Source: Thalassovita aquimarina (GTDB lineage Bacteria > Pseudomonadota > Alphaproteobacteria > Rhodobacterales > Rhodobacteraceae). Taken from it: DNA of 64,000 nt. Each line of letters starts with the position of its first letter. Within the stretch, counting starts at the first letter, position 1. Positions 44,333-57,002 of the stretch are shown here, piece by piece. The DNA is taken from NCBI RefSeq assembly GCF_018219815.1, contig NZ_JADMKU010000006.1:1-64000 (forward strand), in the 5' to 3' direction. The notes beneath the pieces were generated by a model. That model did not search any database, was not told the origin of the DNA, and saw only the letters and a program-made list of their open reading frames with translations. The position numbers were made by a program, and so were the translations under genes.

Positions 44333-44920
44333 TCACAGCGCCCCTTTGGTCGAGGGAATCGCATCGGCCTTGCGCGGATCGGTTTCCACCGCCAGCCGCA
44401 GCGCGCGCGCCACCGCCTTGAACGCGGCTTCGGCCACGTGGTGGGCGTTGAAGCCGTGAATCTGGTCGACATGCAGGGTGATGCCGCCGTGGGTGCTGAT
44501 CGCCTGGAAGAACTCGCGCACCAGTTCGGTGTCGAACGTGCCGATCTTGGGGCTTTGGAAATCCACGTTCCAGATCAGGTAGGGGCGCGCCGACAGGTCC
44601 AGCGCACAGCGCACCTGGGCGTCGTCCATCGGCAGATGGCATTCGCCATAACGCCGGATGCCCTTCTTGTCGCCGAGGGCCTGGGTCAGCGCCTGGCCCA
44701 AAGCGATGCCGGTATCTTCGACCGTGTGGTGATCGTCGATGTGGTAATCGCCCTTGGCGCGGATGGTCATGTCGATCAGCGAATGACGCGCCAGCTGGTC
44801 CAGCATGTGGTCGAAGAATCCCACGCCGGTCTGGTTGTCATAGGAACCGGTCCCGTCGAGATTGATTTCGACCGAGATATCGGTTTCCGCCGTCTTGCGC
44901 GTGATCTGGGACGTCCGCAT
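44333..44920 (-). CDS. hisB: imidazoleglycerol-phosphate dehydratase
   Basis: A 195-residue single-function HisB that dehydrates imidazole glycerol phosphate with Mn2+. The two His-rich metal motifs, [15 protein letters not shown] and [15 protein letters not shown], are both present, and [13 protein letters not shown] supplies an active-site His. ATG at 44920. It is the upstream-most his gene of the window. Confidence 0.95.
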
Positions 44921-45065
44921 GTCGTTCTCCGTGTGCTGTCGCGGGTTTATAGGCCGCGGCGGGGGCATTTCCAAGGCTGCAATGCGGCGCCGCGCGGGAA
45001 TGCAAATGACCGTTGCAGCGGGGGCGCGGACGTGACAGCTTGGCGCAAAGACGAACGAGGCCGAC

Positions 45066-45305
45066 ATGACCACTTGCGTATTTGTACAGATCCGCTGCAA
45101 ACCCGGCACGACCTATGACGTGGCCGAAGAAATCGCGCTGCGCGAAATTCATTCCGAGCTCTATTCGACCAGCGGCGAATACGATCTGCTGATGAAGCTC
45201 TATATCCCCGAGGGCGAGGATATCGGCAAATACATCAACGAAAACGTTCGGAATATCGCAGGGATAGAACGCACGCTGACGACGCTGACGTTCAAGGCGT
45301 TCTGA
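45066..45305 (+). CDS. stand-alone Lrp/AsnC ligand-binding (RAM) domain protein
   Basis: A 79-residue protein that is only the RAM (alpha-beta sandwich) half of an Lrp regulator: [32 protein letters not shown], and a final [11 protein letters not shown]. No DNA-binding helix-turn-helix is present. Such proteins bind amino acids and may oligomerise with full Lrp proteins. Its stop codon abuts the stop of the convergent hybrid kinase gene with no gap. Confidence 0.88.
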
Positions 45306-48008
45306 TCAGCTCTGACCGGCGTCCAGCCGGTCGAGCGCGTCGAGCGTATCCTGCAGCAGGATGGGCAGCATTTCGCGCCGCACCGCCATGACCGCGATAT
45401 CGCCTTTCTTGCCGGCGATTTCGATGTCCAGCAGCGCTTGGCGCAGTCTCTCGGCCCCGAAAAGCGCCGCGCTTGATGCGAATTTGTGGCATCGCGCGGC
45501 GATTTCCATCGTGTCGCCGCATTCCTCCTGCAGCCAGTCGACAAGCGAGGTCAGTTCCTCGGTCAGCTGCGCGCGCAGGGTGGCATAGCCATCCCCGACG
45601 CTGTCGCGCAGGGCGCCGTTGGTTTCGGCGTTGATCAGTTGCTGACCCGGGGCGTCGGGGCAGGAACCGGAAGTCTCGGGGGCGACCTCTTCGGGTTGGG
45701 CCTGGGTATAGGTGGCGATGATGCGTTGCAGGTCCCGCCGCATCAGCGGTTTGGGCAGAACGTCCTGCATGCCGTCCTGCAGGAATTCGGACACGTTTTC
45801 GGGCAGCACGTGCGCGGTCAGGGCGATGATCGGCGTGTCGCTCGATTTGCCATTGCCCGCGCGGATGCGCCTCGTGGCTTCGCGCCCGTCGAGGATCGGC
45901 ATCGAAATATCCATCAGGATCAGGTCGTATTTCTTGGCCGCGGCCTGGGTGACGCCTCTTTGACCGTCGGGGGCTTCGCTGATCCCGTGGCCATCGCGCG
46001 ACAGCATGGCGCGCACGACGTTGCGGTTGATTTCGTTGTCCTCGACCACGAGAATGTCGAGCTTCCGCCCGGCAACTCCGTCTTCCGGCGCGGGACGGTT
46101 CCTGTCGATCACTTCCGCTGCGCGGGGCCGTGCCTGATCTGGCGGTTCTTCGGCATCTTCCATCGGAATCCTGACCCAGAAGGTCGAACCTTCGCCAAGG
46201 GTGCTGTCAACGCCCAGTTCGCCGCCAAGCAGCGAGGTGATGCGCTTGACGATCCCCAGGCCCAGCCCGGTGCCGCCCGCTTCGCGGTTGTAGGCGCTGT
46301 CGCTGGTCACGAAATCGTCGAAGATCATCGCCAGGTCGTCGTTCGAAATGCCCATGCCGGTATCGGCGACCTTGAATTCGATGACATCGGTTCCGGGTTC
46401 TGCGATGACTTCGACGGTGATTTCCCCGTCCTTGGTGAACTTGATCGCGTTGCTAACGAGGTTGATCAGGATCTGTTGGATCCGGCCCGGATCGGTTTTG
46501 ACCCATTTCCGTTCCGGCCCCAGGAAGTAGCTGTTGATGGTGTTGCCGCGCTTGTCGGCGTGGTCCCTGAGATTGTTCAGCGCCGTATCGACGACATCGG
46601 GCAGGTTCGTGGGGCGGTTGCGCAGGATCGGTTTGCCCGCCTCGTAACGGGCGATATCCAGCACGTCGTTGATGTGATCCATTAGCAGCCGGCCCGAGGT
46701 GGACATGTTGTCCACGTAAGCATTTTGACTGCCCGTCAGCGGCGTTTCCTGAAGCAGCGACAGGTTGCCCATCAGGCCGTTCAGCGGCGTGCGGATTTCA
46801 TGGCTCATCACGGCCAGGAACCGGGCCTTGGCCTTTTCACCGGCCAGCGCCTGGTCGCGGGCTTCGATCAGGTCCTGTTCGGCGCGTACCCGGAAGGAAA
46901 TGTCGCGGATGAAGGCAATGAAGAACAGGCGGCCGTGCAGATCGCTTTTCTGTAGCGCCAGTTCGACCGGGAACGTTTCGCCATTGGAGCGCTTGGCATC
47001 CAGCCGAACCCGCCCCTTGCTGACGATGTGGAACGGACCGCCGCTGCGGATGCGCTTCATCGCTGTGTTATGCGAGTCGGCATATTGTTCCGGAACGATC
47101 AGGTCGGCCACGTTGCGGCCGATCGCTTCCTTGTAGGAGTAGCCGAAGATTTCCACCGCGGCATTGTTGAATTCCTCGATGACACCGTCTGAATCGGTCA
47201 CGATCACGGCATCCAGCGCGGTCGAGATCACGGCCCGGGTTCTCTGGCTGGCCTCGATAACCTGGCGGCGGCGTTCTTCGGACCGGCGATTGAGCGTATT
47301 GAAGTAATAGGCCAGCAGCAGCAGCGTTCCCATCAACAGGGCCGACGTGGCCGTTAGGATCAGCAGGGTCGATGCGATTTCGGTGCGCCGGGTTTCGCGG
47401 GCCTGTGCGAATTGGGCGACGCCCACCTGCGCCAATCGATACAGGTCGGGTGCGACTTCAGCCGCGTCTTGATCCAGGGCCGCCATCCCGGCCGCCAACT
47501 GCGCATCTTCCGCATCGATCAGGGGCAGGGTGCGATCCAGGAAACCGCTGACGGCTTCGGTCGACGTCCGGAACGTTTCGATATCGCGCAGGAATTCGTA
47601 GGAAGAGGATTCCCTGAATATGCTGATCCTGCTGTAGAGGATGTCGAACTGAAGCCGCACCGCGTCGAGGCTTTCGGCATCTCCGGCTTCTGCCTGGAGC
47701 ACGCTGTTGCGGAACCTCAGGAATTCGTTTTCGGCCCGGCCAAGCGACCATTGCACCTCTTCGGCATTCGCGATGCGCAGTTCCCGGACTTTGTTGATGA
47801 CGTCAATTGTTTGAAAAACAACCAACATGAAACTGACGGCCGCAATTGCCATCAGTAATCGGGTACTGCCCATATTGAACCGGTTCCCCATGCCGACCGT
47901 CTTTTCGCCCAAGGCGTTTTCAGGCGATGCTTTGGCGGTCAATCTATGCGGTGAATCCGGTGCTGTCGAGCGCTCAGTGGGGTGGGTGTAGAATGATGAA
48001 TCGGGCAC
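45306..48008 (-). CDS. hybrid sensor histidine kinase with receiver and Hpt domains
   Basis: A 900-residue kinase. It has a membrane helix around residues 50-70, a helical periplasmic sensor and a second helix around 215-240. A PAS domain (about 255-370), HisKA with the phospho-His in MSHEIRTPLNG, an ATPase domain (NLVSNAIKFTKDGE, GTGLGLGIVKRI), a receiver with the phospho-Asp in LILMDISMP and a C-terminal Hpt domain with the His in CHKFASSAALFGA follow. The full H-D-H chain is in one protein. A GTG start at 48008 is used, with an ATG at 47891 possible. A 259-bp gap separates it from the NahK-type kinase. Confidence 0.88.
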   Translation of the reverse strand: MPDSSFYTHPTERSTAPDSPHRLTAKASPENALGEKTVGMGNRFNMGSTRLLMAIAAVSFMLVVFQTIDVINKVRELRIANAEEVQWSLGRAENEFLRFRNSVLQAEAGDAESLDAVRLQFDILYSRISIFRESSSYEFLRDIETFRTSTEAVSGFLDRTLPLIDAEDAQLAAGMAALDQDAAEVAPDLYRLAQVGVAQFAQARETRRTEIASTLLILTATSALLMGTLLLLAYYFNTLNRRSEERRRQVIEASQRTRAVISTALDAVIVTDSDGVIEEFNNAAVEIFGYSYKEAIGRNVADLIVPEQYADSHNTAMKRIRSGGPFHIVSKGRVRLDAKRSNGETFPVELALQKSDLHGRLFFIAFIRDISFRVRAEQDLIEARDQALAGEKAKARFLAVMSHEIRTPLNGLMGNLSLLQETPLTGSQNAYVDNMSTSGRLLMDHINDVLDIARYEAGKPILRNRPTNLPDVVDTALNNLRDHADKRGNTINSYFLGPERKWVKTDPGRIQQILINLVSNAIKFTKDGEITVEVIAEPGTDVIEFKVADTGMGISNDDLAMIFDDFVTSDSAYNREAGGTGLGLGIVKRITSLLGGELGVDSTLGEGSTFWVRIPMEDAEEPPDQARPRAAEVIDRNRPAPEDGVAGRKLDILVVEDNEINRNVVRAMLSRDGHGISEAPDGQRGVTQAAAKKYDLILMDISMPILDGREATRRIRAGNGKSSDTPIIALTAHVLPENVSEFLQDGMQDVLPKPLMRRDLQRIIATYTQAQPEEVAPETSGSCPDAPGQQLINAETNGALRDSVGDGYATLRAQLTEELTSLVDWLQEECGDTMEIAARCHKFASSAALFGAERLRQALLDIEIAGKKGDIAVMAVRREMLPILLQDTLDALDRLDAGQS

Positions 48009-48267
48009 TGTTTACCATAACCAGGGTTTAACTAACCATACGCTGTACTTTTGTTCGGCTCGGAACCTTCCTGAATGCGCGATCCGTTTCCGTTTGGATA
48101 AGTGAACCGAAAAGGTCCTGACTTCAAGCCGCTGGGCAAAAAGCGGGCCACATAGGCCAAGTCTTTCCTATCAGTCTAGCGTTTACCAGCGATCATGTCT
48201 GTTCCTCAAAAGAATGATTGATGAAATAAGACGGAGGGAAGCTCGTCCTAAGTATGGGGTGGCGGTT

Positions 48268-50487
48268 TCAGGGCGTTTCGGATTGCCGCAACGATCGCAT
48301 CAGGAAAGTGCGCAATTCCCGCGGCGCGATCGGTTTGTGCAGCAAGTGCAGCCCTGCCTCCTGGCAAATCTGTGTGACTGCGACCTCGCGTGTCGCGGTG
48401 GCGATGCAGGCGGGGACCGGGCCCAGGTCGCGGCGCAGCGCGGCGATCAGATCGGTGCCCAGTTCGCCGTCGTCAAGTTGATAATCGGCGACGATCGCAT
48501 CCGGGGTGACGCCGAATTCCTCGATCAATCCGCGTGCCTCGACCTCGTCGGCGCAGGCCAGGACGGTGACGTCCCAGCTGTCCATCACAACGGTCAGCGC
48601 ATTGCGAAGCTCGGCATCATTTTCCGCCAGCAGCACGATCATGTTTTCAAGGCTGTCGGTCTTTGCCGCATGTTGCGGTCCCACTGCGCGCCCGGGGTCT
48701 CGTTCGGCCGGCGCCCGGGGGATTTCGACGGCGAACATCGTGCCCCGGCCGGGCCTTGAGCGGACCTGCAGCGGGTGTTGCAGCAATGCGCAGGCGCGTT
48801 CGACGATGGCCAATCCCAATCCCAGCCCTTCGCTGGCGCTGCTCGGGCTGTCGACGCGGTGGAATTCGTTGAAGATCAGCTCCTGCTGGTCTTCGGGGAT
48901 GCCGGGGCCGGTATCGTGCACTTCGATCCGGACGGAGTGTTTCAGATGCCGCACCCCGACAAGGACGCGGCCGGTCTGGGTATAGCGGACCGCGTTGGCC
49001 ATCAGGTTCTGCAGAATGCGGCGCAGATAGGTGGCGTCGCTGGCGACCACCGCCGATGACGCGACCAGCCGCAGGTCCAGCCCTTTTTTCTGCGCCAGCG
49101 GGGCCATTTCATCGAGAAGCTGGATCATCATCCTTCGCAACGGCACCTGTCCGACATGCACCGAGGCCCGGCCTGAATCCAGTTTCGAGATATCCAGCAG
49201 CGCCCCGAGAATATTCTCGACGCTGATCAGCGCGTTGTTTGCGCGGCCCAATACCGAACGCACCTGATCGTCGGGATGATCGGCCGCGACCGACCCGACA
49301 TAGAGCTTGGCCGCCGACAACGGTTGCAGCAGGTCATGGCTCGCCGCCGCCACGAAACGGGATTTCGACGCGTTCGCCCGTTCCGCATCGGCCAGCGCAT
49401 CTTCGAGTTCCAGCGTGCGTTCGATCACCCGCTGTTCCAGTTGTTCATTGGCCTCGTAAACCGCCTGCACCGCAGCACGTTCGGCGCTGATATCGGTGAA
49501 GGAAAACACGAACCCCTTGTCGGGCATTTCCTGCGCCGACACGGTCAGGGTTTTGGAGTTGCGGTGCAGGACTTCGAATGACAGCGGCGGGCGCTGTTTT
49601 TCGGTTTGAACCCAGTCTTCCACCTCTTGCGCCGATATTCCCTCCTCGAAGGCAAGTTCGTGACGGAACCGTTCGAACAGCATGTTGAAGCCGATGCCGA
49701 TGCGGAACCGCCCCAGCGGGATCGACAGCAGTTCGCTGGCACGTTCGTTCCAGCCGACCAGCCGCGCCTGGCTGTCGAAGATGCACACGCCCTGATCGAG
49801 GTGGTCCAGCGTGGCGCGGATCAGCTTGGCCTGATCGTCCAGCATCCGGTCGCGTTCGCGCCGTTCCAGCCGCATGATGTCGGTCACGTCGGTCTGCAGG
49901 ATCACCGTGCCGCCATCGGGCGTGCGGTGTTCGCTGACCTGCACCCAGCGGTTCCAGATCATGCGGACGTTGAAAATGACATGGCTGTCGGTGTGTCGTT
50001 CCATCCGCCGTGCCGCCCAAGTCTCCGGCGTTTCGTCCTGGCGTAGCGATAGGAATTTCGAGTGGCTGACCAGGCGGATGTACTCGGCAAAGCTAAGCCC
50101 CGGTACCATCTTGTCGCGGATATCGGGCATGTGCATGCCGAAGCGGCTGTTGCACATGACCAGCCGTTCGTCCGAATTGAACAGCGCGAAACCTTCCTGC
50201 ACCGTCTCGATCGCGTTGGTCAGGTTGGCGCGGGCGGCTTCGGTTTCGCGGTTGGCCTGCGCCAGCTTGGCGTTGGATTCGTTCAGCAATTCGAGCGCGC
50301 GGCCCAGGTCGCGGGTGCGCGCGCGGACCTCTTCCTCAAGGATGACGGCGCGCTGGAACTGGGCATAGGCGGCGTCGGACGCGTCGCCGCCCTGTTCCAC
50401 CCGGCGCATCAGCGCATCGGCGATCTTGACCAGTTTCTGGTTCTGCCGCTCGATGGAATCGTGGGGATCGATCAGGGGATGGGTCAT
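48268..50487 (-). CDS. nahK: NahK/ErcS-type hybrid histidine kinase
   Basis: A 739-residue cytoplasmic kinase without membrane helices. A coiled coil (about 20-105) is followed by two to three PAS domains (VQEGFALFNSDERLVMCNS and LDQGVCIFDSQARLVGWNE). Then come HisKA with AASHDLLQPLSAAKL, an ATPase domain (NLMANAVRYTQTG, DTGPGIPEDQ) and a C-terminal receiver with the Asp in AIVADYQLDDG. The DLLQPL form of the H box is typical of NahK/ErcS kinases. It starts 4 bp after the FIST gene, so the two are coupled. The symbol is a family-level name. Confidence 0.85.
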   Translation of the reverse strand: MTHPLIDPHDSIERQNQKLVKIADALMRRVEQGGDASDAAYAQFQRAVILEEEVRARTRDLGRALELLNESNAKLAQANRETEAARANLTNAIETVQEGFALFNSDERLVMCNSRFGMHMPDIRDKMVPGLSFAEYIRLVSHSKFLSLRQDETPETWAARRMERHTDSHVIFNVRMIWNRWVQVSEHRTPDGGTVILQTDVTDIMRLERRERDRMLDDQAKLIRATLDHLDQGVCIFDSQARLVGWNERASELLSIPLGRFRIGIGFNMLFERFRHELAFEEGISAQEVEDWVQTEKQRPPLSFEVLHRNSKTLTVSAQEMPDKGFVFSFTDISAERAAVQAVYEANEQLEQRVIERTLELEDALADAERANASKSRFVAAASHDLLQPLSAAKLYVGSVAADHPDDQVRSVLGRANNALISVENILGALLDISKLDSGRASVHVGQVPLRRMMIQLLDEMAPLAQKKGLDLRLVASSAVVASDATYLRRILQNLMANAVRYTQTGRVLVGVRHLKHSVRIEVHDTGPGIPEDQQELIFNEFHRVDSPSSASEGLGLGLAIVERACALLQHPLQVRSRPGRGTMFAVEIPRAPAERDPGRAVGPQHAAKTDSLENMIVLLAENDAELRNALTVVMDSWDVTVLACADEVEARGLIEEFGVTPDAIVADYQLDDGELGTDLIAALRRDLGPVPACIATATREVAVTQICQEAGLHLLHKPIAPRELRTFLMRSLRQSETP

Positions 50488-50491
50488 GCGG

Positions 50492-51673
50492 TCAGGCCGT
50501 TTTCGGCGGCTGTTCGGGCGGGTAGATCGCGACCCCGGTGAGCGTCTGGTTCACATGCATCGAATTCAGCTGCTCGCCGTAGGTGGAAAATCCGACGACA
50601 TGGTTTGACGCCAGAATGTCGGACAGCTTGCCCTTGAGTTGCTTCTGTTCCGCTTCCAGCCTTCTCAACAGGCAATCGCAGGCAAGGATCGCGTCCGGGG
50701 CGCCGTTTGCCGACAGGTTTCGGATTTCCCCTTCCAGATGTCCCACCATGTCCATCGGTTCGGCCAGCGACAGCACGAGCCCTTCGCCGATCGCCGAGAA
50801 GAAGACCAGATCGCCGTTATCCGCCACCCGCTGGATCGACCGGACGTGATGCTGTTCGCCGATCCGCACCACCACCGGGTGGGCGGCAAAGGTGAACGTG
50901 TCGAGCTGTTCAGGGTCCTTGCCCAGTACCCGGGCATATTCGCGCGCCGCCGGTTCGGCGTTGATTTCGTGCACGATGCGGCGGTCTGGATCGGCGCCGG
51001 TCACCACCATGCGCCGTTCGGTCGGCACCAGATGGTCGCTCTTGAACACCTTGATCGGGCAGATGGTGCGGATTTGCGCCACGATGGCGGCATTGCGCAT
51101 CGCGCGGCCGTTCGCGATCACGAAAGTGGTCTCGAAACTTTCGCCATCGCCGGCCGACCCGCCGAACAGCGGCACCGGGCCAAGCCCGAGCGCAAGGTCG
51201 GCGGTCAGCTTGTCTTCGCAGCGCGACAATCCATCGATCATCAGGAAATTGAATTCGTAATCCCAGTCGGGCACGTCGCGCATCAAGGCGTTGCGGCTCT
51301 GGACCATCCGCCCGATCAGCGCCTGCGGATCGTATGCGTCCAGATCTTCCACCAGCAGCATCCGGGCACGGAAATATGCCCGCGGAAATCCCACCGCGAC
51401 GATATTGCCGTCTGAATAGCCCTCGCTTGTCAGTTCCCCCGCCGTGGTGCAGCCCAGGACAAGGCTGTCGGGAAGCAGTTCGGCCGCGCGCGCGGCCACG
51501 TTTTCGATATCGGCCTGCGGCGACACGAACAGAAGCACAAGGTCGAACGCCTCATCGCCAAGCTCACGCGACAGGGTCAGCACGGGATCGGGGGCGGTGC
51601 AGGCGATATTGGCGGTGCGCATGATTTCAGGCGCACAGCGCACCGAATGCGACGGACCCGCGAACTGGTCCAT
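50492..51673 (-). CDS. nosP: FIST-domain sensor protein, NosP-like
   Basis: A 393-residue protein with FIST_N (LPDSLVLGCTTAGELTSEG) and FIST_C (ILACDCLLRR, then VVGFSTYGEQLNSMHVNQTL) domains. In Pseudomonas the FIST protein NosP binds haem and nitric oxide and controls the kinase NahK encoded beside it. This gene has the same neighbour, 4 bp downstream. Haem binding here is inferred from that context, not visible directly. ATG at 51673 is chosen because GGGAGG precedes it. A start 15 bp upstream would include that site. Confidence 0.82.
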   Translation of the reverse strand: MDQFAGPSHSVRCAPEIMRTANIACTAPDPVLTLSRELGDEAFDLVLLFVSPQADIENVAARAAELLPDSLVLGCTTAGELTSEGYSDGNIVAVGFPRAYFRARMLLVEDLDAYDPQALIGRMVQSRNALMRDVPDWDYEFNFLMIDGLSRCEDKLTADLALGLGPVPLFGGSAGDGESFETTFVIANGRAMRNAAIVAQIRTICPIKVFKSDHLVPTERRMVVTGADPDRRIVHEINAEPAAREYARVLGKDPEQLDTFTFAAHPVVVRIGEQHHVRSIQRVADNGDLVFFSAIGEGLVLSLAEPMDMVGHLEGEIRNLSANGAPDAILACDCLLRRLEAEQKQLKGKLSDILASNHVVGFSTYGEQLNSMHVNQTLTGVAIYPPEQPPKTA

Positions 51674-51715
51674 CCTTTGTCCTCCCATGTTTCCTCCGGC
51701 GGCGATTGTTGCCGG

Positions 51716-52405
51716 TTAACCGCCGTCTTGCAAGATCGCGCGGAAGCTCGTTTCCTTGGCGATCAGAACCGCCTGGGTGCGGCTTTGCACGCCCAGCTTG
51801 CGCATGATCGCGGTGACATGCGCCTTCACGGTGGTTTCGGCGATCGACAGGTCGAAGGCGATCTGCTTGTTCAGCTTGCCCTCGCAGATCAGCTGCAGGA
51901 TGCGCGCCTGCTGATTGGTCAGCGTCGCCAGCCGCGCGCTGGCATCCTCGCAGCCCATATCGTTGTCATCGTCCAGCAGGTCGTACCCGTCGGGGACATA
52001 AACGGTGCCGCGGCGGATCGCGTCGAAGGCGGCGGCGAAGACATCGCGCTGGCTGTGCTTGGGTACGAACCCCGCCGCGCCCGCCCTGATGGCCGAACTG
52101 ATCACCCTGCTGTCGCTCATCGAAGACACGATGATCACAGGTGCCCGTGTCGCGGTTTTCAACCGGATCAGCCCGTCGAACCCGTTCACGTCCGGCAGGT
52201 TCAGGTCCAGCACGACGATATCGGGGCTGCCGTTCTGGGCGATTTCGTCCAGCGCCGCCTGCAGGTGCGCGGTGGCGCGGATCTCGGCGGTGCCGGTCAC
52301 AGCCTGCAGGGTCATCGCCAACGCGTCGCAGAACAGAGGGTGATCGTCCACGACCAGTGCCGACTTGATTTCGGTCGGCGCGGAAGGCGCGGCGCTGTCG
52401 GACAT
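51716..52405 (-). CDS. LuxR-type response regulator
   Basis: A 229-residue regulator. A receiver (LVVDDHPLFCDALAMTL, phospho-Asp in IVVLDLNLPDVNGF) is followed by a LuxR/NarL helix-turn-helix (KLNKQIAFDLSIAETTVKAH). It is the first gene of the minus-strand unit with nosP (42-bp gap) and the NahK-type kinase. It is divergent from coxG across 178 bp. ATG at 52405, with GGAAGGGA upstream. It is the obvious output protein of the signalling cluster. Confidence 0.92.
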   Translation of the reverse strand: MSDSAAPSAPTEIKSALVVDDHPLFCDALAMTLQAVTGTAEIRATAHLQAALDEIAQNGSPDIVVLDLNLPDVNGFDGLIRLKTATRAPVIIVSSMSDSRVISSAIRAGAAGFVPKHSQRDVFAAAFDAIRRGTVYVPDGYDLLDDDNDMGCEDASARLATLTNQQARILQLICEGKLNKQIAFDLSIAETTVKAHVTAIMRKLGVQSRTQAVLIAKETSFRAILQDGG

Positions 52406-52583
52406 GGAATTCCCTTCCGGTCGGTCAGATCTGAGGATCAGACTAGCAATCTGCGCGGTCACGGGAAAGTGGGCGAAAGTCGTATGCGAGGGTGCTTGCG
52501 CAATCGCCGGTCTACGCCGATAGTCGAATAGCCTTATGGCTGCGAATGCGCCTAGGATTTCGAAACATCAGGAGGGCTCGCAA
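52406..52583. promoter_or_regulatory. divergent regulatory region between the response regulator and coxG
   Basis: Two structures stand out. A near-palindrome GTCAGATC-TGAG-GATCAGAC (52424-52443) has 7 of 8 arm positions complementary. A 12-bp direct repeat of pattern CGAWAGTCGWAT occurs at 52474-52485 and 52518-52529, starts 44 bp apart (about four helical turns), on the coxG side. These are candidate binding sites for the response regulator. An AGGAGGG ribosome-binding site for coxG ends the region. Confidence 0.45.
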
Positions 52584-53108
52584 ATGCAAATGACAGATTC
52601 CCGCGAAATCGCCGCGGACCGGCAAACCGTCTGGGCCGCGTTGCTTTCGGCGGATGTACTGAAGGAATGCGTCCCCGGCTGTCAGGCCATGGCCGGTTCG
52701 CCCGAGGAAGGGTTCGAAGCCACCGTGGTTCAGAAGGTCGGGCCGGTGAAGGCCACCTTCAAGGGCGCTGTCAGCCTGTCGGATATCGTCGAGGGCGAAA
52801 GCCTGACCCTGACCGGCGAAGGCAAGGGTGGCGCGGCCGGCTTTGCCAAGGGCGGCGCCAAGGTGACGCTGTCCGACCTGCCCGATGGCGGCACGCTGCT
52901 GGGCTATGACGTCGACGCCAAGGTCGGCGGCAAGCTGGCGCAGCTGGGCAGCCGGATCATCGACGGTGTCGCGCGCAAGATGGCGGACCAGTTCTTCGAA
53001 CGGTTCCAGACCGTCGTGGAAGGGCCCTCGGAAACCGGCGAGGATACCGAGCCGGGCGCGGAGGGCGAACAGAAAAAAGGCTGGATGAAAAAGGTTTTCG
53101 GGGCATAA
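52584..53108 (+). CDS. coxG: CoxG-like SRPBCC protein
   Basis: A 174-residue protein of the carbon monoxide dehydrogenase subunit G family. The START/SRPBCC fold is seen in VWAALLSADVLKECVPGCQAM and the glycine-rich GKGGAAGFAKGGAKV region. A short acidic, then basic C-terminal tail probably anchors the enzyme at the membrane. In CO oxidisers CoxG recruits the dehydrogenase to the membrane. Here it is the first gene of the coxGSLM operon. Confidence 0.9.
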   Translation: MQMTDSREIAADRQTVWAALLSADVLKECVPGCQAMAGSPEEGFEATVVQKVGPVKATFKGAVSLSDIVEGESLTLTGEGKGGAAGFAKGGAKVTLSDLPDGGTLLGYDVDAKVGGKLAQLGSRIIDGVARKMADQFFERFQTVVEGPSETGEDTEPGAEGEQKKGWMKKVFGA

Positions 53109-53162
53109 TTCCCGATATTCATTCACGAAATTGAAGGCGCTTATCGGCTTAGGGAGGGCACG

Positions 53163-53648
53163 ATGACAGAAGTAAGAATGACAGTGAACGGCCGCGAGGT
53201 ATCGGGCGATGTCGAGGGGCGCACGCTGCTTTCGACATTCCTGCGCGAAAACCTGGGTCTGACCGGGACCCATGTCGGTTGCGACACCTCGCAATGCGGC
53301 GCCTGCGTGGTGCATGTCAACGGCAACGCGGTGAAATCCTGCACCATGTTCGCGCAGGAAGCGGCGGGCGCCGACGTGGCGACCATCGAAGGCCAGGCCA
53401 ATGCGGACGGGTCGCTGAACGCGATCCAGCAGGCGTTCCAGGATTACCACGGCCTGCAATGCGGTTTCTGCACCCCGGGCATGGTGATGTCTGCGGCGGC
53501 CCTGCTGAAGGAAAACCCCAAGCCGAGCGAAGCGGAAATCCGCAATTACCTCGAAGGTAACATCTGCCGCTGTACCGGCTATCACAACATCGTTCGCGCG
53601 ATCATGGCCGCCAGCGGTCAGGACGTGCCGGCAGTTGCCGCGGAATGA
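53163..53648 (+). CDS. coxS: CO dehydrogenase-like small subunit, 2x[2Fe-2S]
   Basis: A 161-residue iron-sulphur subunit of the xanthine oxidase family. The plant-type cluster Cys are in [11 protein letters not shown] plus a later Cys in VKSC, and the second cluster's in CGFCTPGMV and CRCTGYHN. It passes electrons from the Mo site to FAD. A 7-bp GC hairpin (53655-53673) follows its stop codon within the 94-bp gap to coxL. Confidence 0.95.
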
Positions 53649-53742
53649 TCGCCACCGCGCGGGTTTCGCGCGGGGAAACGTATTTTCAGAACGATGAAAG
53701 GGCAGGGGGCGACCCCGGACCCGATCACAGGGAGGATTTGAA

Positions 53743-56118
53743 ATGCCGAAAGATCATGGCATCGGCGCCAGCCCGAAGCGGCGCGAAGACGTGCGGTTCC
53801 TGACCGGAGCCGGAAATTACACCGACGACATCAATGTGCATGGGCAGACCTATGTCCATTTCCTGCGCTCTGACGTGGCGCATGGGACGATCAACAGCAT
53901 CGACGCCTCGGAAGCCGAGGCGATGGATGGGGTGCTGAAGGTTTTCACCGCCAAGGATTTCGAAGCGGTGGGCGGACTGCCCTGCGGCTGGCAGGTGACC
54001 GACCGGTTCGGCGAGGTGATGCAGGAACCGAAACACCCGATCCTGGCCGAGGGCAAGGTGCGCCATGTCGGCGATCCGATCGCCGCTGTGGTGGCCGAAA
54101 CGCCCGAACTGGCGCGCGACGCGGCCGAGGCGATCGTGGTGGACATCGATGAACTGCCCGCCGTGGTCGACATGAAGGCGGCTCTGGAAGACGGTGCCAC
54201 CAAGGTGCATGACGATCTGACCTCCAACCTTTGCTATGACTGGGGCTTCGTCGAGGAAAACAAGGAAGCGGTGAACGAGGCGTTCAAAAACGCCGCCCAT
54301 GTCACCACGCTTGAACTGGTGAACAACCGCCTGGTCGCGAACCCGATGGAACCGCGCGTGGCGATCGGCGATTACAGCCGCGCCAACGATGAACACACGC
54401 TTTATACCACGTCGCAGAACCCGCATGTGATCCGCCTGCTGATGGGCGCTTTCGTGCTGGGTATTCCCGAACACAAGCTGCGTGTGGTGGCTCCCGATGT
54501 GGGCGGCGGGTTCGGCACCAAGATCTTCCATTATGCCGAAGAAGCCTTCGTCACCTTCGCCGCCAAGGCGCTGAACCGTCCGGTCAAATGGACCTCCAGC
54601 CGGTCCGAGGCGTTCATTTCGGACGCGCACGGCCGCGATCACGTGACCAAGATCGAACTGGCGCTGGATGCCGACAACAAGTTCACCGCGCTGCGCACCG
54701 ATACCTATGCCAATATGGGGGCCTACCTGTCGACCTTCGCGCCTTCGGTTCCGACCTGGCTTCACGGGACGCTGATGGCCGGCAACTACACCACGCCGCT
54801 GATCTATGTGAACGTGAAGGCGGTGTTCACCAACACCGTGCCGGTCGATGCCTATCGCGGCGCGGGTCGCCCCGAGGCGACCTTCCAGCTGGAGCGGGTG
54901 ATCGACAAGGCGGCGCGCGAACTGGGCGTCGATCCGGCCGAACTGCGTCGGATCAACTTCATCAAGCCGGAACAGTTCCCCTATGAAACCCCGGTCGCGG
55001 TTGCCTACGACACCGGTAATTACCACGCCACGCTCGACAAGGCGCTGGAGATGACCGACTACGCCAATTTCGACCAGCGCGCGGCAGAGAGCAAGGCGCG
55101 CGGCAAGCTGCGTGGTTTCGGGATTGCCCACTACATCGAGGCCTGCGGCATCGCGCCGTCGAACCTGGTGGGGCAACTGGGTGCACGTGCCGGCCTTTAC
55201 GAAAGCGCCACGGTGCGGGTCAACGCCACCGGATCGATCAGCGTGATGACAGGGTCACACAGCCATGGGCAGGGGCATGAAACCACCTTCCCGCAGGTGA
55301 TCGCCGAAATGATCGGGATCGACGAAAGCCAGGTCGATATCGTTCATGGCGACACGTCGAAAACGCCGATGGGCATGGGCACCTACGGGTCGCGGTCGAT
55401 CGCGGTCGGCGGGTCGGCCATGTTCAAGGCGGCGGAAAAGGTGATCAACAAGGCGAAGAAGATCGCCGCCCACCTGATGGAGGCCTCGGAGGCAGATATC
55501 GAACTGGCCGACGGTCAGTTCAGCGTCGCGGGCACCGACAAGTCGGTCGCCTGGGGTGATGTTTGCCTGGCCGCCTACGTGCCGCACAACTACCCGCTGG
55601 AAGACCTTGAGCCGGGGCTTGAGGAAACCGCCTTCTACGACCCGTCGAACTTCACCTATCCCTCGGGCGCCTATTTCTGCGAAGTGGAAGTGGATCCCGA
55701 TACCGGTTCGATCGATATCCTGTCGTTCAGCGCGGCGGACGATTTCGGCAACGTGATCAACCCGATGATCGTCGAAGGTCAGGTTCATGGCGGCGTGGCA
55801 CAGGGCATCGGACAGGCGATGCTGGAAAACGCGGCCTATGATGAAAACGGTCAGCTGCTCACCGGGTCCTACATGGACTACGCGATGCCGCGGGCCGCGG
55901 ACCTGCCGAGCTTCAGCGTCGACCATTCCTGCCAGACACCGTGCACCCACAACCCGCTTGGGGTGAAGGGTTGCGGCGAGGCCGGGGCCATCGGGTCGCC
56001 GCCGGCGCTGGTCAACGCGGTGATCGACGCGCTGCATCGTGGTGGTTACCCTGTCGAACATATCGACATGCCGCTCAGCCCGTCGCGGGTCTGGAACGCG
56101 ATCCAGTCGGCGAAGTGA
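53743..56118 (+). CDS. coxL: CO dehydrogenase-like large (molybdopterin) subunit, form II
   Basis: A 791-residue molybdenum hydroxylase subunit. The active-site loop reads AYRGAGR at residues 370-376, which defines form II; form I (true CO dehydrogenase) has AYxCSFR with the Cu-binding Cys. The conserved catalytic Glu746 lies in [15 protein letters not shown]. Form II enzymes are widespread in roseobacters and their physiological substrate is unclear. Gene order S-L-M is also the form II order, and maturation genes (coxD/E/F) are not in the window. Confidence 0.93.
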
Positions 56119-56169
56119 TATCAACCTCGGGGCGGGGTATTCCCCCGCACCCTCAGGGGAGGAACAAGG

Positions 56170-56952
56170 ATGTATAATTTCGATTTCGAACAACCGGCCA
56201 GCGTTGACGCGGCCGTGGCGGCGCTCAAGGACGAGGACGCATTGCCGCTGAGCGGCGGTCAGACCCTGATCCCGTCGATGAAACAGCGGCTGAACGCGCC
56301 GTCGAAGCTGGTCAGCCTGACCGCGATCGAGGCGCTCAAGGGCGTGTCGGCGGCGGGCGGTGCCTTGACCATCGGTGCCGCGACCACCCATGCCACCGTG
56401 GCGGCCGAGGCTTCGGCCTATCCGGCGCTGGCGGCGCTGGCGGGCGGCATTGGCGATCCGGCGGTGCGCAATCGCGGCACCATCGGCGGGTCGCTGGCCA
56501 ACAACGACCCGTCGGCCTGCTATCCGGCGGCGGTGCTGGGATCGGGCGCGACCATCGTGACCAACGCGCGCGAAATCGCGGCGGATGACTTCTTCGACGG
56601 GGTGTTCACCACCGCGCTGGAGGAAGGCGAAATCGTCACCGCGGTGAAATTCCCGATCCCGGAAAAGGCCAATTACCAGAAGTTCGAACAGCCCGCATCG
56701 CGGTTCGCGCTGACCGGGGTGTTCGTGGCCAAGACCGCCGACGGCGTACGCGTCGCGGTGACCGGTGCCTCGGAAGAAGGCGTGTTCCGCTGGACCGAGG
56801 CGGAAGAGGCCCTGTCGGCCAATTTCGCGCCCGAAGCGGTGGACGGCCTCAGCGCCTCTGCCGACGGGTTGATCAGCGACCTGCACGGCACGCCGGAATA
56901 CCGCGCCAACCTGATCAAGACGCTGACCAAACGGGCGGTGGCCGCGGCCTGA
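56170..56952 (+). CDS. coxM: CO dehydrogenase-like medium (FAD) subunit
   Basis: A 260-residue FAD-binding subunit. The SGGQTLIPSMKQRL and RNRGTIGGSLANNDPSACYP loops bind FAD, as in the xanthine oxidase family. It accepts electrons from CoxS and hands them to the respiratory chain. It is the last gene of the operon, 51 bp after coxL and followed by a strong terminator. Confidence 0.93.
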   Translation: MYNFDFEQPASVDAAVAALKDEDALPLSGGQTLIPSMKQRLNAPSKLVSLTAIEALKGVSAAGGALTIGAATTHATVAAEASAYPALAALAGGIGDPAVRNRGTIGGSLANNDPSACYPAAVLGSGATIVTNAREIAADDFFDGVFTTALEEGEIVTAVKFPIPEKANYQKFEQPASRFALTGVFVAKTADGVRVAVTGASEEGVFRWTEAEEALSANFAPEAVDGLSASADGLISDLHGTPEYRANLIKTLTKRAVAAA

Positions 56953-56977
56953 GCCATGTTCCGGATGCAGGAACAGC

Positions 56978-57002
56978 AAAGGCGCCCCGCGGGGCGCCTT
57001 TT
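56978..57002 (+). terminator. intrinsic terminator of the cox operon
   Basis: A perfect 24-bp palindrome (56978-57001) with GGCGCCCC arms is followed by a run of four T residues, 25 bp after the coxM stop. The A-run on the other side lets it also serve the convergent J-domain gene. Confidence 0.85.

Follow-up and report, generated by a model that had tools for sequence, protein, structure and literature searches.

The ped cluster of Pseudomonas putida opens with a nosP-like gene (PP_2663), pedS1/nahK (PP_2664) and agmR (PP_2665), and a review suggests nitric oxide (NO) sensing instead of, or beside, alcohol sensing for the NosP-like protein and PedS1 (PMC12997753). NosP proteins bind NO via haem (PMC12570481, PMC11784011), and FIST domains may bind NO and/or haem by a mechanism that is little known (PMC8846402). 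The regulator CrbR, also called ErdR (PMC12997753, Table 2), acts at the acs promoter of Pseudomonas fluorescens, where an ACTU palindrome at -52 to -36 is needed for CrbR-dependent activation (PMC5715377). Form II carbon monoxide (CO) dehydrogenases are reported to be widespread in marine bacteria, their activity being unresolved, and CoxG is described as quinone-binding (PMC13240472). Here we analysed a 64,000-nt window (the whole stretch of DNA under study) of Thalassovita aquimarina, NZ_JADMKU010000006.1, in which the genes of a LuxR-type response regulator, a FIST protein and a NahK-like kinase, together called the trio, face a form II cox operon. The trio very probably controls this operon, given a pairing that is conserved across genera and an operator that is shared before coxG. 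No report of FIST/NahK control, or of such a regulator or operator, for form II cox was found in searches of the open-licence PMC literature, judged mostly from result listings.

The locus was read from a list of open reading frames (ORFs), their translations and Pfam matches. Computed here were the gene order and how widely it is conserved, the operator shared between loci, its co-occurrence with the trio in cis and in trans, the likeness to ACTU sites and the absence of the pyrroloquinoline quinone (PQQ) system. The features are as follows.

48268..50487, minus strand: NahK/ErcS'-like cytoplasmic hybrid histidine kinase (Pfam PAS_7 in two stretches, HisKA, HATPase_c and REC)
50492..51673, minus strand: FIST protein, NosP-like (Pfam FIST and FIST_C; alignment of 16 orthologues)
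51716..52405, minus strand: LuxR-type response regulator, ErdR/CrbR-like (Pfam REC and GerE)
52512..52531, no strand: predicted operator CTACGCCGATAGTCGAATAG, an ACTU-like near-palindrome of 20 bp (expectation-maximisation motif from 19 intergenic regions)
52553..52558, plus strand: -10-like element TAGGAT (conserved spacing downstream of the operator)
52584..53108, plus strand: coxG (Pfam COXG; operator-to-ATG spacing 52 bp)
53163..53648, plus strand: coxS, 2Fe-2S subunit (Pfam Fer2/Fer2_2)
53743..56118, plus strand: coxL, form II molybdenum subunit (AYRGAGR motif; Pfam Ald_Xan_dh/MoCoBD)
56170..56952, plus strand: coxM, FAD subunit (Pfam FAD_binding_5)

The regulator, FIST and kinase genes form a single minus-strand unit from which coxG-coxS-coxL-coxM diverge on the plus strand, as an earlier note on this DNA had described, and the gaps of 42 and 4 bp given there hold when FIST, whose ORF opens at 51688, starts at 51673. 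The regulator ORF opens with GTG at 52462 (51716-52462), the ATG at 52405 being the likelier start; the coxG ORF begins at 52536 and its probable start is the ATG at 52584, preceded by AGGAGGG at 52570-52576. CoxL carries the form II loop AYRGAGR in place of (A/S)YRCS(F/L)R, which bears out the form II assignment of the earlier note, and the same loop is present in all 150 CoxL proteins examined in genomes of the family. The kinase shows the domain order PAS_7-HisKA-HATPase_c-REC, and the FIST protein combines FIST_N and FIST_C with a neighbouring gene for a NahK-type kinase, as NosP does.

Conservation was examined in 248 genomes of the family of the window, Rhodobacteraceae, representing 247 genera. 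A coxL match at E<=1e-180 was found in 194 of them and positions were listed for 150, so that all linkage counts are lower bounds; G135, for example, has a coxL beyond those listed that adjoins its trio (L121). FIST matches occur in 99 of the 248 genomes, 83 of them at >=47% identity, a limit chosen after seeing a gap between 47% and 44%. In at least 36 of these 83 genomes coxL lies within 20 kb of FIST and in at least 23 within 5 kb, which exceeds chance, and the earlier note's refuting possibility, a neighbourhood confined to this strain, failed. The 23 close pairs are divergent in 16 cases and run in the same direction in seven, and on the coxL tree the linkage needs at least 23 changes by a fewest-changes count. 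Among 60 fetched stretches we found three layouts: the trio directly facing coxGSLM, as in the window; trio and cox about 8-16 kb apart, with PQQ-alcohol genes nearby in 12 genomes; and the genes in one direction, in the order response regulator-FIST-NahK-coxGSLM (e.g. L087, L121, L126 and L127). In the named loci, which are the best 80 of 532, FIST and NahK are both present in all 80, the trio is complete in 78, and the DNA retrieved holds coxL in 20 and exaC in 12. The closest is that of Thalassovita gelatinovora (L132, FIST 80%). The matches listed from a search of the wider order all come from the family itself; one match beyond the family, a Cohaesibacter locus (L204), stands among the named loci.

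An expectation-maximisation search of 19 intergenic regions between the response regulator gene and coxG returned one strong motif, approximately CTACGCCCAAGGTCGAATAG, with a site of 16.2-29.1 bits in every region. Its log-likelihood was 198; six shuffled sets, run with fewer search starts, gave 60-72. The 20-bp near-palindrome between the response regulator gene and coxG, a predicted operator that is new in this analysis, is the sole strong site of the window (24.1 bits). The next best, 45161-45180 (13.3 bits), was judged a chance match because it lies inside a plus-strand ORF (45066-45305, AsnC-like by eye only). An exact pattern, chosen with the window site in view, has one match in the 4.33 Mb genome, before coxG. 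Both coxG and a site are present in 33 genomes. In all 19 of these that have a recognisable start the operator ends 48-55 bp ahead of the coxG ATG, and 29 of the 33 show TANNNT downstream of the operator, at an offset of 20-23, against a shuffled mean of 0.85. Scored in register, five published ACTU-type sites reach 17.2 (acs), 16.0, 10.9, 7.1 and 0.5 bits, and none of 50,000 random 17-mers attains the 17.2 bits of the acs site.

It is conceivable that the operator is real and yet bound by another regulator that was inherited together with the trio. Binding by the response regulator of the trio is predicted from sequence, and three further ErdR matches exist in the genome (113.8, 85.1 and 76.6 bits), which leaves such a regulator some room. 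However, the site lies between the response regulator gene and its neighbour and looks like the ACTU site known from the CrbR/ErdR family; ErdR is the top NCBIfam match of this regulator, which is in turn the strongest of the four ErdR matches in the genome. We therefore regard a different binding protein as most improbable.

The operator is distributed as a target of the trio would be. We compared 150 genomes, one coxL each, in which FIST-negative means that nothing reaches >=34% identity; sites were counted from 15 bits, a threshold set by eye ahead of this comparison. An operator precedes cox in 36 of 68 evaluable FIST-positive genomes vs 0 of 72 FIST-negative ones (Fisher 7e-15), and the latter stay at 0/72 at every cut-off from 11 to 20 bits. 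The frequency is 19/23 where FIST lies within 5 kb, 4/13 at 5-20 kb and 13/32 of evaluable genomes with the trio elsewhere; the contrast restricted to trios unlinked to cox gives p 3e-8. In held-out genomes, a set that omits eight training genomes known by handle and may share species with training records, the figures are 28/60 vs 0/72. The coxL tree yields 23 independent pairs whose members differ in FIST; on average the operator agrees with FIST in 9.9 of them, opposes it in 0.0 and does not differ in 13.1 (median p 0.002). In a sister species without FIST (G076) the best site before coxG reaches just 8.3 bits. Since both the operator and a FIST match at >=34% are lacking in 72 of the 150 genomes with a listed coxL, control of form II cox by a FIST trio is lineage-specific and no general property of form II enzymes.

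The company of the trio in relatives hints at what kind of regulon this is. PQQ-system genes adjoin the trio in 39 of the 80 named loci, and the genes between trio and cox, assigned by NCBIfam, comprise a PQQ alcohol dehydrogenase (TIGR03075), an ATP-binding cassette (ABC) binding protein (TIGR03863), PedF, PedC, TIGR03864 and TIGR03866. When upstream regions were scored with the same matrix, some species being included twice, a site of >=15 bits was present for PedF at 42 of 57 loci, for exaC at 5/16 (median 13.1, null -1.6) and for the PQQ alcohol dehydrogenase at 9/62 (median 11.8, null -1.1); for coxG the counts are 8/22 loci with PQQ context and 13/16 other trio loci. The matrix also finds sites before the response regulator gene itself in part of the loci. 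Where no trio is present, none was found before coxS (0/19) or coxG (0/5). In the genome of the window the profiles of PQQ alcohol dehydrogenase and PqqB give nothing over cut-off and TIGR03863 is unmatched at E 1e-60; PQQ genes as part of a ped/exa regulon are thus missing here and present in many relatives.

This company invites the thought that coxGSLM is a remnant from the margin of a ped cluster since lost, next to the trio for historical reasons and outside its control. Such a history would suit the linkage of the trio to PQQ genes in many relatives, the presence of coxL no more than 20 kb from the PQQ ABC gene (TIGR03863) in at least 18 genomes, and the 47 of 83 FIST genomes with none of the listed coxL within 20 kb. 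It does not suit an operator that is found before cox also when the trio is elsewhere (13/32) and never without FIST (0/72), an association with which the tree-controlled pairs agree, nor the 8.3-bit site of the FIST-less G076. Moreover, 24 FIST-cox linkages have no TIGR03863 gene nearby and 16 of these are in genomes without any TIGR03863 match (E<=1e-60), indicating that the trio and coxGSLM remain paired where the PQQ system is absent. We find a purely historical neighbourhood highly improbable.

The earlier note had proposed that a NosP-NahK gas or redox sensor switches this enzyme on or off, and that the pairing would hint at the enzyme's role. In this form, FIST would be a haem-based NO (or CO) sensor through which the trio switches a CO-oxidising enzyme. 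The FIST and NahK-type domains, the strong similarity to NosP (1.7e-115), the NO binding of NosP proteins cited above and the support for the regulator-enzyme link itself all fit; and yet the curated NosP cut-off was missed by the window protein and by four orthologues (scores are given below), the trio adjoins PQQ-alcohol genes, which the operator precedes, and CoxL has the form II motif and misses the aerobic CO dehydrogenase profile TIGR02416 (657 bits, cut-off 991.15). CO has also been doubted as a form II substrate (PMC6794299). We consider a gas-switched CO oxidation unlikely. By its neighbours and by analogy with Pseudomonas, the trio is no independent gas switch and would belong to the type found with PQQ-alcohol (ped/exa) clusters, both in relatives and in Pseudomonas (PMC12997753), which hints at alcohol or aldehyde oxidation and not at gas chemistry. 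Thus the pairing of regulator and enzyme survives, with a shared operator added, and it does give a hint of the enzyme's role, in the direction of alcohols and aldehydes.

Taken together, we think it likely that a NahK-like kinase tuned by FIST phosphorylates the response regulator and that the latter switches on coxGSLM, whose product would probably be an aldehyde dehydrogenase linked to quinone. FIST would set the activity of NahK, which has a receiver domain of its own and would pass phosphate, directly or via an Hpt protein, to the ErdR/CrbR-like regulator, a phosphorelay route that we infer. The regulator, once phosphorylated, would then bind the palindrome (52512-52531), which directly precedes a weak sigma-70 promoter, and recruit RNA polymerase to the coxG promoter; it is the position of the operator that suggests activation and not repression. 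In relatives the same site also stands before genes of the PQQ alcohol dehydrogenase system and, more weakly, before exaC, an acetaldehyde dehydrogenase gene. In the genome of the window the regulon appears reduced to the coxGSLM operon, as this is the only exact-match target and the PQQ system is absent.

Several results weigh against this reading. The FIST protein scores 386 bits against NosP (NCBIfam NF041558, equivalog; 1.7e-115), below the curated cut-off of 450, and four orthologues score 369-397 bits, all under that value, so that the window protein and its orthologues seem to form a group sister to NosP. Against near_NosP_CTERM the kinase falls narrowly short (NF041832; 372.8 bits, cut-off 400), and the response regulator is below the ErdR cut-off (NF041830; 161 bits, cut-off 390). 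Of the NosP-NahK identity given in the earlier note the domains and the gene pairing stand, and the name NosP is one of resemblance, since both of the first two cut-offs were missed and haem or NO binding is putative. With one mismatch the operator pattern has 10 matches vs 18 for a reversed control, and weaker targets are therefore indistinguishable from chance; the 0.5 bits of one of the five published ACTU-type sites are weak. Of the 68 FIST-positive genomes, 32 have no operator ahead of cox. These include 4 of the 23 in which the genes are adjacent and 9 of the 13 with a distance of 5-20 kb; in the latter group transcription of coxG may start at the PedF promoter further upstream. One of eight genomes whose sole FIST match is distant, G088, does have the operator. 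When just the genomes that bear coxG are compared, the held-out contrast is 24/42 vs 0/11 (p 5e-4), from which it follows that part of the overall contrast goes with coxG. In 47 of the 83 FIST genomes none of the listed coxL lies within 20 kb, and 20 of the 80 named loci show no coxL, PQQ gene or exaC in the DNA retrieved, some of them being on short contigs. The aldehyde substrate, finally, is deduced from the company in the regulon, in which an alcohol dehydrogenase and exaC stand under the same operator, and from the top NCBIfam match of CoxL, to glyceraldehyde dehydrogenase alpha (NF041018), at 670 bits below the cut-off of 790.

Weighing these points, we hold the case for a regulatory link between trio and cox to be strong as far as sequence data go; the signal and the substrate we infer. 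CoxGSLM would most likely be a quinone-linked aldehyde (or related) dehydrogenase and not a CO dehydrogenase. More tentatively, and with rather less confidence, we suggest that the coxG-bearing form II enzymes of Rhodobacteraceae might be quinone-linked aldehyde dehydrogenases belonging to a FIST-NahK-ErdR alcohol/aldehyde regulon with an ACTU-type operator, which has shrunk to cox where PQQ was lost. If so, it would be a mistake in Rhodobacteraceae to take such coxL genes for those of CO oxidisers. With a regulator, an operator and co-regulated genes now defined, the question of the form II substrate becomes testable, and the site at 52512-52531 offers a single promoter on which regulation can be examined.

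Other observations concern the surroundings and the relatives. The earlier note's span, which began at 45306, does contain the trio and cox; 45306-48008 on the minus strand is a separate TorS/BarA-like hybrid kinase outside the conserved trio, with PAS, HisKA and REC domains; its match to Hpt is weak, at 24.0 bits against a cut-off of 24.6. It was rejected as part of the unit, being next to the trio only in Thalassovita gelatinovora (L132, 65%) among the best 80 of 532 loci, and a relative in G076 (L068, 48%) adjoins cox without a trio; it could be a source of an Hpt domain for the trio. At 44333-45109 on the minus strand lies imidazoleglycerol-phosphate dehydratase (HisB) by Pfam, the ORF start of which is probably too far upstream. 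Two further CoxL-like proteins are encoded in the same genome, L002, a second one with AYRGAGR (44% identity to the window CoxL), and L003, whose form I motif SYRCSFR means that another candidate for CO oxidation exists there. Among genus-mates FIST is absent in G076 and G285 and present in G320 and G446. A second FIST group (34-44% identity, 28 genomes) has a TIGR03863 gene within 25 kb in 19 genomes and a listed coxL within 20 kb in 0/28. In L111, L113, L114, L118 and L193 coxG stands close to the trio, and the DNA retrieved shows neither coxS nor coxL; for some, a contig end may be the reason. In L156, L157, L163 and L189 the trio is near putative Fds-type formate dehydrogenase genes and a LysR regulator, assigned by Pfam for two L156 proteins and by clustering for the remainder.

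How does this locus compare with what has been described? With form II CO dehydrogenases it shares the AYRGAGR motif and the S, L and M subunits, here together with CoxG (PMC13240472, PMC6794299); a joint rise of PqqB/C/D and CoxM/L/S on fructose is reported from Azospirillum brasilense (PMC11837500), which we take as a lead only. As in NosP-NahK of P. aeruginosa and NosRPK of Burkholderia pseudomallei, the FIST gene lies beside that of its kinase (PMC11784011, PMC12570481), but the outputs there are HptB/Rsm or an HD-GYP-type regulator, whereas here the output would be a LuxR-type response regulator beside enzyme genes and the NosP cut-off is missed. The predicted layout of the coxG promoter is that of acs in P. 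fluorescens, and CrbS/CrbR of that species shares with the window a LuxR-family response regulator and an imperfect palindrome just upstream of a sigma-70 promoter, in the window a predicted one; CrbS differs in its SLC5 domain and acetate-gene targets, in place of which we find a NahK-like kinase with FIST and cox/PQQ targets (PMC5715377). The closest likeness is to the ped regulators of P. putida, with a FIST protein, a NahK-type hybrid kinase and a LuxR-type regulator beside genes for PQQ alcohol dehydrogenase, PedF, the PedB/PedC ABC transporter and beta-propeller proteins, a gene set that is found with the trio in relatives of the window. Unlike in P. putida, the response regulator of the window is ErdR-like by NCBIfam, its proposed target is a form II molybdenum hydroxylase and the PQQ system is not over cut-off, which would add a molybdenum hydroxylase to the biofilm and PQQ genes as targets of FIST-NahK control.

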